Positions 49,949-60,102 of a DNA stretch of 60,102 bases are shown piece by piece; the first letter of the stretch is position 1; every line of letters starts with the position of its first letter. Origin of the DNA: Archaeoglobaceae archaeon (GTDB taxonomy: Archaea > Halobacteriota > Archaeoglobi > Archaeoglobales > Archaeoglobaceae); contig JALWDS010000002.1 in the NCBI GenBank assembly GCA_027036775.1, positions 1 through 60,102 of the forward strand. Reading direction: 5' to 3'. A model generated the notes under the pieces. It searched no databases. It saw only the letters and a program-made list of their open reading frames with translations, and was not told the origin of the DNA. The translations under genes were made by a program, and so were the position numbers.

Positions 49949-50743
49949 CAATCAATCCTAACATAGTCTGATTTTATCGGAACGTTCCAAAATCAAGCCA
50001 TAAAAATACTTGATTCTTTCAATCCTAATATAGTCTGATTTTATCTATGAGCAAGGTTGAAGACGTAATGCTCGATTTGGCACTTTCAATCCTAATATAG
50101 TCTGATTTTATCCCGCACTTGCATGCGATATGTCTTGCACGACGTGTGATCTTTCAATCCTAATATAGTCTGATTTTATCCTTACAGAATGACAGAGGAA
50201 GAAGTAAATCTATTAATGCTTTCAATCCTAATATAGTCTGATTTTATCAGCGAGGCAATCCCTTTAAGTATTAGCTGGACTGGAGTCTTTCAATCCTAAT
50301 ATAGTCTGATTTTATCACGCTACCTCATCGGCAAAATCGGAATCTCTCGTAATCCTTTCAATCCTAATATAGTCTGATTTTATCCTATGAGCTTTTGCTC
50401 AACGGAATGTCCGATGGCCTGCTTTCAATCCTAATATAGTCTGATTTTATCCAGCTGAACATAAGCGAAGTAGCTGACAAGGTGCTTGATCCTTATGCAA
50501 TAATAACTACTTTCAATCCTAATATAGTCTGATTTTATCTTAACTTTACAGAAGATACTAAAGTTTGCACTATTCGAACTTTCAATCCTAATATAGTCTG
50601 ATTTTATCAGAGGAGGGCGATTCTGATGCTTGAAGACATACACCTCTTTCAATCCTAATATAGTCTGATTTTATCTAGTGGTAACTATAGAGTAGCATCT
50701 CTTGTGATTCTAACTTTCAATCCTAATATAGTCTGATTTTATC
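49949..50743 (-). CRISPR. CRISPR array 1: 12 repeats, 11 spacers
   Basis: The 30-bp repeat begins CTTTCAATCC and ends TGATTTTATC on the + strand. Repeats start at 49949, 50016, 50083, 50151, 50219, 50287, 50355, 50422, 50510, 50579, 50646 and 50714. Read leftwards the repeat ends in ATTGAAAG, the usual archaeal 3' end, so transcription is leftward and the leader is at the right. The leftmost repeat is degenerate (AA for TT at positions 2-3, C for T at position 14), as expected for the old end. Spacers are 37-39 bp except the eighth (50452-50509), which is 58 bp. No cas genes are nearby. Confidence 0.97.
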
Positions 50744-57743: not shown

Positions 57744-58730
57744 ATGATGCTGATAGTTCTCGGAAACACCGAAATATCTCTGATAGAGGGAATAAGCATA
57801 GCTGGTGCGAATCCCGAACTTACGAAGTTCACACCACCTGCCGATGTCGAATACATCTTCTACGGTAGGCCGAAGGTTATTGATGCCGTTCCCGTAACTC
57901 CTCAGGGACATCCTACGCCAGCGATAATAACGAAAGCCTGTTACGAACTCGCAAAGTTTCCGATAACGGTTGTCAGGGCGGGAACGTTTTTGGAACCGAT
58001 GTTGCCCCACGTTCACGTGAGCGGTAGCGTGGGTAGGGATTTCAGAAGATTTACCGCCCTACCCAACGTAGATGAGATAGTTGAGAGGGGCAGGATTTTA
58101 GGTGGGGAGCTTTCAAAGGTCGTTGACGAGATCGTCGTGGGCGAATCCACGCCCGGTGGGACTACGACTGCTCAAGCAATCCTCTGGGCCTTGGGTTACG
58201 ACTCAAAAACGTCATCCGCCTCTCCAAACAACCCCCAAGAGCTCAAGGGGAGGGTTATTAGGGAGGGGTTCGATAGGATTGGCATCGATTTCGGTGACCT
58301 CTCCGAAAAACCAGTTGAAGCTCTGAGGGAGTTCGGCGATCCCACTTTGGCCTGCATCTTGGGGATATCTTTGGGTTTTAAGGGGAAAGTCGTTTTGGCT
58401 GGAGGAACCCAGATGCTGGCAGTTTCAGCTATTTTGAAGGCTTTGGGCGAGGACTTAAAGAGGTTCATGATCGCAACGACTCGATGGGTAGTTGAGGATA
58501 GGAGTGCGACGTTTGAAAAAACAGCGGAGGAGATAGGCGTGGAATACTACGTTGCGAAGTTGGACTTCTCCCAAAGCAGGTTCAAGGGACTGAGGGATTA
58601 CGAGAGAGGTTTCGTTAAGGAGGGTGTCGGTGCGGGAGGTTCAGTCTATCTGGCTGAGAAGACGGGAGTGAGAGTTGAGGAGGTATTTGAAAAGGTCGAG
58701 GAGCTTTACTCGAAGCTTTATGAGGGGTAG
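57744..58730 (+). CDS. cobT: Archaeal CobT-type nicotinate-nucleotide:base phosphoribosyltransferase
   Basis: Activates the lower-ligand base of cobamides. 328 aa; [41 protein letters not shown] and [14 protein letters not shown] match the archaeal CobT-related family. Start at ATG 57744 or 57747. Its stop overlaps the cbiZ start, linking the two in cobamide assembly and salvage. Confidence 0.87.
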
Positions 58731-59304
58731 GTTTATAGGAGATCACTTCGTCTTCGAATTTCGAGACCACATGATCTCCCTTAGCAACGCACCGCACAAC
58801 TCCGGAGTTTTCAAAGCTAAGGGGTTCTTCTTCATGCATGTCGATGAAAACTACGACGGAGATTACAAAGCGGACTGCCTCAAATTCGAACGCGAAAACA
58901 ATTTAAAGGATTTCGTTGGATTCATGACCGCAACTTCCATAAGGAAGACGCTGAGTTACGCAAGAGAGGGTTGCGTTGAAGTTTTTGTGACGGTTGGACT
59001 GAAGAACAAGGCTATCGTTGGTGAAAGGGCGGACAACAGGTTTGGAACTGTTAACATAGTTGTTTTAATTGAGGAGGGCGTTACATTGGGCTGTCTCGTG
59101 AATGCAATAATGACCGCAACTGAAGCTAAGACTTATACCCTTCTAAAGCTCGTCAAAGCTACCGGAACCACGAGCGATTCCATAGGCGTGTTCGGATTTG
59201 AAGGCGAAACGGAATGGGCGGGAACCGCAACGAGATTGGGATTCTGTATAGGTAGGGCCGTAAGGAGGGCATTGGAGAAGAGCGTCCTTTCAATCCTAAC
59301 ATAG
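58720..59304 (+). CDS. cbiZ: Adenosylcobinamide amidohydrolase
   Basis: Converts adenosylcobinamide to adenosylcobyric acid for salvage. 194 aa from ATG 58720; [27 protein letters not shown] and [16 protein letters not shown] with [10 protein letters not shown] are family hallmarks. The last codons (VLSILT and the stop TAG 59302-59304) are encoded by a CRISPR repeat, so the natural C-terminus may have been replaced or the repeat formed there. Confidence 0.9.
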
Positions 59305-59889
59305 TCTGATTTTATCTCTCAACTGTTCGAGCTCATCGAGGAGGTTTTCCCACATTAGTGAATCTTCGAGGACTTCACCGAGATTAAAACCTCTATCGAG
59401 CAACTTACCTATATTTGATTCAACTAACTCAAAAAACTCATCGAAATCCATCCCATACTTCCTTCTAAGTTCGTTTATCTTTCTTTCGATCTCCTTTATT
59501 CTTCTTTCTAAATTTTCTCTTAATAGCTTTTCCGAAATCTGTAATGACATACTTGATATACTTCGCATCGAGAGGTATAAGAAATTTTGCAACTTTCAAT
59601 CCTAATATAGTCTGATTTTATCCTCTCTTTGTGACTGGGTAGCCATAGACCTTCAGCGCTTTCAATCTTAATATAGTCTGATTTTATCCTCTGCCTCTCT
59701 TTCCAGAATCTCAAGAACATCCTCCTTTCAATCTTAATATAGTCTGATTTTATCAAGGTAATTATTCTTTCGAGGGGGGGTTCCGTGTAAACCTTTCAAT
59801 CTTAATATAGTCTGATTTTATCGATCACGACTGGTGTCAACACAGCCTTAGTGAATACCCTTTCAATCTTAATATAGTCTGATTTTATC
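59287..59889 (-). CRISPR. CRISPR array 2: 6 repeats, with a 276-bp gene-bearing gap after the terminal repeat
   Basis: Same 30-bp repeat family as array 1. Repeats start at 59287, 59593, 59659, 59725, 59793 and 59860. The first is separated from the second by 276 bp carrying an antitoxin-like gene; the remaining spacers are 36-38 bp. The terminal repeat has C at position 14, as in array 1's terminal repeat. The four leader-side repeats carry T instead of C at position 10. The leader is at the right, so transcription is leftward. Confidence 0.95.
59296..59568 (-). CDS. Antitoxin-like protein encoded inside CRISPR array 2
   Basis: A 90 aa highly charged helical protein (from ATG 59568; ATG 59550 starting MSLQISEKL is equally likely). 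ERRIKEIERKINELRRKYGM, then DFDEFFELVE and a C-terminal helix ENLLDELEQL resemble archaeal antitoxins that pair with RelE/PIN-type toxins. Its final residues DKIRLC and stop are the CRISPR repeat read leftwards. No toxin gene follows; cbiZ lies there on the other strand. Family assignment is tentative. Confidence 0.55.
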   Translation of the reverse strand: MRSISSMSLQISEKLLRENLERRIKEIERKINELRRKYGMDFDEFFELVESNIGKLLDRGFNLGEVLEDSLMWENLLDELEQLRDKIRLC

Positions 59890-60102
59890 TGTGTAGTTGT
59901 TGAGGAGATTTTTGAATAAAAAAGTTTCGGAGTGTTTTGATTATTTAAATACGGTCTGGCAAGTCTGATAATGCACTTCATTTATAAAGATGCCAGACTT
60001 TTATCCCTCCCTTCTCTTCAAAATTGACGACCCGTCAACCGATTAAATCAAATTTAAAACCCTGTCCCCTTGGCAATCCCGAAAAATAATTTCCTTCTAC
60101 CC
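59890..60102 (-). promoter_or_regulatory. CRISPR leader 2 (continues to the window edge)
   Basis: Differs from leader 1 at only a few positions (about 8 by eye over 213 bp). The inverted repeat GTCTGGCA/TGCCAGAC and the leftward TATA-like CTTTATAAATG are fully kept, pointing to selection on these elements. Confidence 0.85.

Follow-up and report, generated by a model that had tools for sequence, protein, structure and literature searches.

CRISPR array 2 of an Archaeoglobaceae archaeon probably carries a single over-long spacer of 276 bp that was acquired from a virus. The array lies at the right-hand end of the 60,102-nucleotide stretch of DNA analyzed here (the window), and its leader-distal interval measures 276 bp compared to 36 to 38 bp in its other four intervals. 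One over-long spacer is the best reading of this interval because it is an ungapped block of viral sequence, ends at both flanking repeats, and appears to have been cut without regard to genes.

Organization of array 2

Array 2 consists of six 30-nt repeats, CTTTCAATCYTAAYATAGTCTGATTTTATC (Table 1). The leader lies to the right of the array and is alike in four other arrays with the same repeat; thus, transcription runs from right to left, in the same direction as the small open reading frame (ORF) that was captured in the array. With the leader on this side, the 276-bp interval, which has array repeats on both of its flanks, is the oldest surviving unit of array 2. An earlier note on this DNA had described 276 bp between the first two repeats filled by a small ORF, and the repeat coordinates and interval lengths agree with that layout. 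It had also placed the gene where a spacer would be, which is borne out; yet the interval itself is probably the spacer, viral and oversized.

Table 1. Features at the right-hand end of the window
Feature	Position	Strand	Remarks
cbiZ (adenosylcobinamide amidohydrolase)	58720..59304	+	Pfam PF01955, E=8.6e-42
Terminal (leader-distal) repeat	59287..59316	-	Variant AACATAG
Captured viral ORF	59296..59592	-	98 codons from TTG (table 11); C terminus replaced by repeat codons
Probable giant spacer, 276 bp	59317..59592	-	Ungapped 94.6% match to virus-like element G037:C10:963-1238
Truncated 3' end of upstream overlapping viral gene	59465..59590	-	41 codons plus stop, AKFLIPLDAKYIKYVITD...
Second repeat, leader-side boundary of the 276-bp interval	59593..59622	-	
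Normal part of array 2	59623..59859	-	Four spacers of 36-38 nt; repeats 59659-59688, 59725-59754, 59793-59822
Leader-proximal repeat	59860..59889	-	
Leader, 213 bp	59890..60102	-	94-98% identity to leaders of the genome's four other arrays

Viral origin of the 276-bp interval

A donor search of 55 Archaeoglobaceae genomes returned one very close match, in a metagenome-assembled genome of a different genus (G037, Archaeoglobaceae archaeon, JALVJV010000010.1; loci L053 and L016). There, 261 of the 276 positions were identical in a gapless alignment over the whole length. Inside the flanking repeats, only 12 of 30 and 10 of 30 positions matched the donor, and the breakpoint posteriors peaked at 59319 (most weight on 59317-59321) and 59592 (most weight on 59590-59594), so that homology breaks at most ~3 bp from both repeat boundaries. 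The interval is contiguous DNA derived from a virus-like mobile element: the G037 block encodes a DnaA-like initiator of phage families, large membrane proteins, and a ParE toxin. The donor found, which is 5% diverged, is a relative of the true donor.

In G037, no CRISPR repeats lie near the gene, no direct repeats of at least 22 nt were detected around it, and the counterpart of the captured ORF has its own C terminus (LEQLKLKIKSI and a stop). According to the earlier note, the same gene located away from CRISPR with a different native C terminus would make this locus a chance junction. Such a gene does exist in G037; however, a chance junction is not the right conclusion, since the sharp breaks at the two repeats resemble those of spacer acquisition.

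More distant relatives (~50 to 55% identity) were found in G004 and in a provirus resident in the genome of the window (G000:C31 ~90.6 kb), which carries a phage-type primase, while a 66% relative in G001 lies near genes that look like an integrase and a primase, as judged by sequence. A host-gene origin was rejected: wherever the context of the closest relatives could be read, they lay in virus-like or integrated elements. A scan of IMG/VR with the captured protein returned no relatives, nor did a phage collection compared with this protein and most of the genome's other spacers. Thus, the donor group is known here from genome assemblies alone.

Content of the interval and the captured ORF

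The interval contains the last 41 codons of the upstream overlapping gene and the captured ORF short of its last few codons, and nothing else. The upstream gene is 104 amino acids in full length in G037, and its N-terminal side is cut off in the array. Because only the tail of this gene was taken, the cuts appear to ignore gene ends, and the interval resembles, by its sequence, a random DNA fragment rather than a gene moved as a unit. The viral start of the captured ORF is likely the in-frame ATG of MSLQISEK. Compared to the donor, the ORF shows nine synonymous and three nonsynonymous differences (pN/pS 0.08). These mainly synonymous differences are consistent with viral lineages that diverged before capture, and the pN/pS value alone would also allow for selection in the host.

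The ORF had been described as antitoxin-like, a label that found no backing in protein families: the captured ORF had no Pfam match above the cut-off and chance-level matches only in PADLOC, and its 98-amino-acid viral counterpart had no PHROGs match. Like type II protein antitoxins, the ORF is small, charged, and helical-looking, and in two viruses its relatives lie near a ParE-type pair; unlike them, it matches no antitoxin family, and the ParE-like genes are already paired with a small neighbor of their own. No toxin partner gene sits beside the ORF in the array. In both viruses, the ParE-like toxin gene and its small partner gene are close to the captured gene (L053 327-774 and L009 1513-2105). 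We infer that the captured ORF is not a working host gene.

The terminal repeat and cbiZ

On the plus strand, the terminal repeat supplies the final five codons of cbiZ (LSILT) and its stop; on the minus strand, it supplies the final codons of the captured ORF (DKIRLC), again with the stop. Both stops, the cbiZ TAG at 59302-59304 and that of the ORF at 59296-59298, fall inside the repeat, which is in agreement with the proposal that it forms a shared coding end of the two genes. They end there because the repeat has stops in nearly every frame: translation of the terminal, second, and consensus repeats gave stops in all three plus-strand frames and in two of the three minus-strand frames. The coincidence of two stops is therefore unremarkable, and almost any frame entering a repeat ends there. 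In G001, a same-genus relative with no array at cbiZ, the native cbiZ tail is RAVRTALEEGVRRWFSLKTF followed by a stop. Homology of the window cbiZ to this copy ends at about the start of the terminal repeat, and the repeat-supplied LSILT and stop replace the native tail. Thus, the array adjoins cbiZ and has supplied its new C-terminal end.

Other arrays, flanking motifs, and cas genes

The genome's other 38 spacers range from 35 to 58 nt, and the 276-bp interval is ~7 times the normal length (~37). In two related genomes, 140 repeat spacings, among those listed, measured 64 to 103. Array 1 contains an over-long spacer of 58 nt (window 50452-50509); apart from this one and the giant one, spacers are 35 to 41 nt long. 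When the ordinary spacers were compared with the 55 Archaeoglobaceae genomes, with few candidates scored per genome, matches occurred only in the genome's own arrays.

The 5' donor flank of the 276-bp protospacer is CAT, and the flanks at the provirus matches of two other spacers are GGA (37/37 match) and AAA (29/37 match); the comparison is based on just these two clear provirus matches, whose flanks are inconsistent with each other. One of the two is a self-targeting spacer in array 4 (G000:C31:16877-16913), identical at 37 of 37 positions to the resident provirus (L054 7257-7293), with GGA on the 5' side and TGG on the 3' side. The leader-distal spacer of array 1 (window 49979-50015) shares 29 of 37 positions with this resident provirus.

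Repeat variants are layered over the five arrays. Arrays 4 and 5 and the trailer end of array 3 mostly have GTATAG. The rest of array 3 has ACATAG, as do the terminal repeats of arrays 1 and 2, whose remaining repeats have ATATAG. This layering may record the order in which the arrays were seeded from one another.

The genome carries a type I-B locus encoding Cas4, Cas1b, Cas3, Cas5, Cas7, and Cas6. An 87-amino-acid cas2-like ORF directly follows cas1, completing a cas4-cas1-cas2-like module, and one array adjoins these adaptation genes. A second cas1 lies elsewhere (G000:C44:2055-2873) and is full length relative to the Pfam model. Between the adaptation genes and cas3 of the I-B locus is a HepT/MntA-like toxin-antitoxin pair (L055 9478-10057), which scores below the NCBIfam cut-offs and whose second gene matches PADLOC PDC-S09.

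Origin of the interval

We propose that a fragment of an Archaeoglobaceae virus-like element entered array 2 at its leader-proximal repeat, without having been trimmed to ~37 bp, while the array was very short. The Cas1-Cas2 integrase would have acted in one step without trimming, although the cited passages describe nothing as long as 276 bp. In type II-A, Cas1-Cas2 alone, without a trimming partner, integrates unprocessed longer substrates in vitro (PMC8034620); in type V-A, loss of Cas4 causes a shift to longer spacers (PMC9419969). As in normal spacer acquisition, the repeat would have been duplicated on the far side of the fragment. Ordinary spacers added later would have pushed the giant unit to the leader-distal position, or older neighbors would have been lost. 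The fragment would have happened to hold nearly all of a small viral ORF, including its start, and would thus look like a gene sitting in the array. If the unit were transcribed and cut by Cas6, the RNA would carry the usual 5' handle and a greatly extended guide, with an expected crRNA, for a working giant spacer, of 5' ATTGAAAG-TTGCAAAATTTC; its first ~37 nt, TTGCAAAATTTCTTATACC..., could guide interference if the 3' side were trimmed.

Some observations sit uneasily with acquisition as a single spacer. A prespacer of 276 bp greatly exceeds the usual size, the flanks CAT, GGA, and AAA yielded no PAM, and the terminal and second repeats differ by one base, which calls for a later mutation or another history; the 5% divergence of the donor found also counts here. 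The main rival, which we consider unlikely, is recombination between the array and viral DNA. Two normal spacers derived from sites ~200 bp apart in the virus would have been followed by gene conversion that replaced the repeat between them with viral sequence. Such an event would likewise leave uninterrupted viral sequence bounded exactly by two repeats, and the prespacers would have been of normal length. Nonetheless, it requires that both spacers came from one strand of one gene and that a double crossover took place within homologies of ~37 bp, and none of the remaining array 2 spacers is a convincing match to these viruses.

It is very unlikely that the ORF is a domesticated antitoxin or another useful gene kept in the array, with loss of the array being punished. 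The ORF is intact, has its own ATG and a repeat-supplied stop, is codirectional with the array, and differs from the viral copy mainly by synonymous substitutions; a synonymous excess, however, is expected from divergence within viruses. Moreover, the gene lies within an array in no other family genome searched, it matches no toxin-antitoxin family, and the gene overlapping it upstream is truncated. Cutting of the array transcript by Cas6 would also split the ORF from a leader-driven mRNA. The functional antitoxin link discouraging array loss that the earlier note put forward fits poorly on the first two of these grounds, namely that no relative searched has the gene within an array and that the gene has no antitoxin match. 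Its other two options fared no better: insertion of a gene into an old spacer would fit poorly with a homologous viral block that fills the interval from repeat to repeat with no old-spacer remnant, and recombination that trapped a host gene does not fit a segment from a virus-like element whose breaks match repeat ends, not gene ends.

Arrival of the segment with repeats already attached, for instance by repeat-repeat recombination with a viral mini-array or a different CRISPR array, is highly improbable: viruses carrying mini-CRISPR arrays reportedly exist, and the terminal repeat variants are common to arrays 1 and 2, but repeats are absent around the gene in the donor relative, and the origin of the oversized unit would be left unexplained. 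Least credible is an assembly chimera at a 30-bp repeat, for which the draft state of the genome (48 contigs) and the contig end at 60102, just past the repeated leader, provide an opening, but both repeat-virus junctions would need to exist in the reads, and no second 95% donor copy available for misjoining was found in the genome.

Relation to known systems and implications

Taken as one oversized spacer, the interval resembles ordinary acquisition in type I-B systems with Cas4 in that mobile-element DNA lies between two repeats, ends at their boundaries, and occurs alongside I-B cas genes including cas4; it differs in being seven times the normal length and in having a donor flank to which no PAM is assigned. 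The longer spacers seen after loss of Cas4 or trimming in types V-A and II-A are alike in that Cas1-Cas2 integrates untrimmed substrates (PMC9419969 and PMC8034620). Those cases are laboratory systems with a modest excess in length, whereas here ~240 bp extra is found in nature with cas4 present. The idea that the captured gene discourages array loss recalls CreTA, the CRISPR-regulated toxin-antitoxin addiction modules, which likewise have a degenerate repeat and an extra element near CRISPR repeats (PMC9458426); CreTA, however, is an RNA pair with ectopic repeats, and the element here is a protein-coding viral fragment. A literature search on giant or oversized spacers found nothing relevant, a weak absence given coverage mostly outside subscription journals. 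The giant spacer is an unusual form of an already known process.

In the current view, trimming and the fixed reach of the Cas1-Cas2 complex set the length of spacers. A spacer of 276 bp found in nature, with its viral DNA ending at both repeats, suggests that a type I-B archaeon bearing Cas4 can exceed this limit. We regard it as very improbable that a nearly complete viral gene was captured by CRISPR adaptation in a single step and is now expressed by the host from the array with a repeat-encoded C terminus; if this were true, adaptation could act as a route of gene acquisition. For annotation, what looks like a "gene inside a CRISPR array" may turn out to be an oversized spacer, and such oversized units preserve much more viral sequence than ordinary spacers do.
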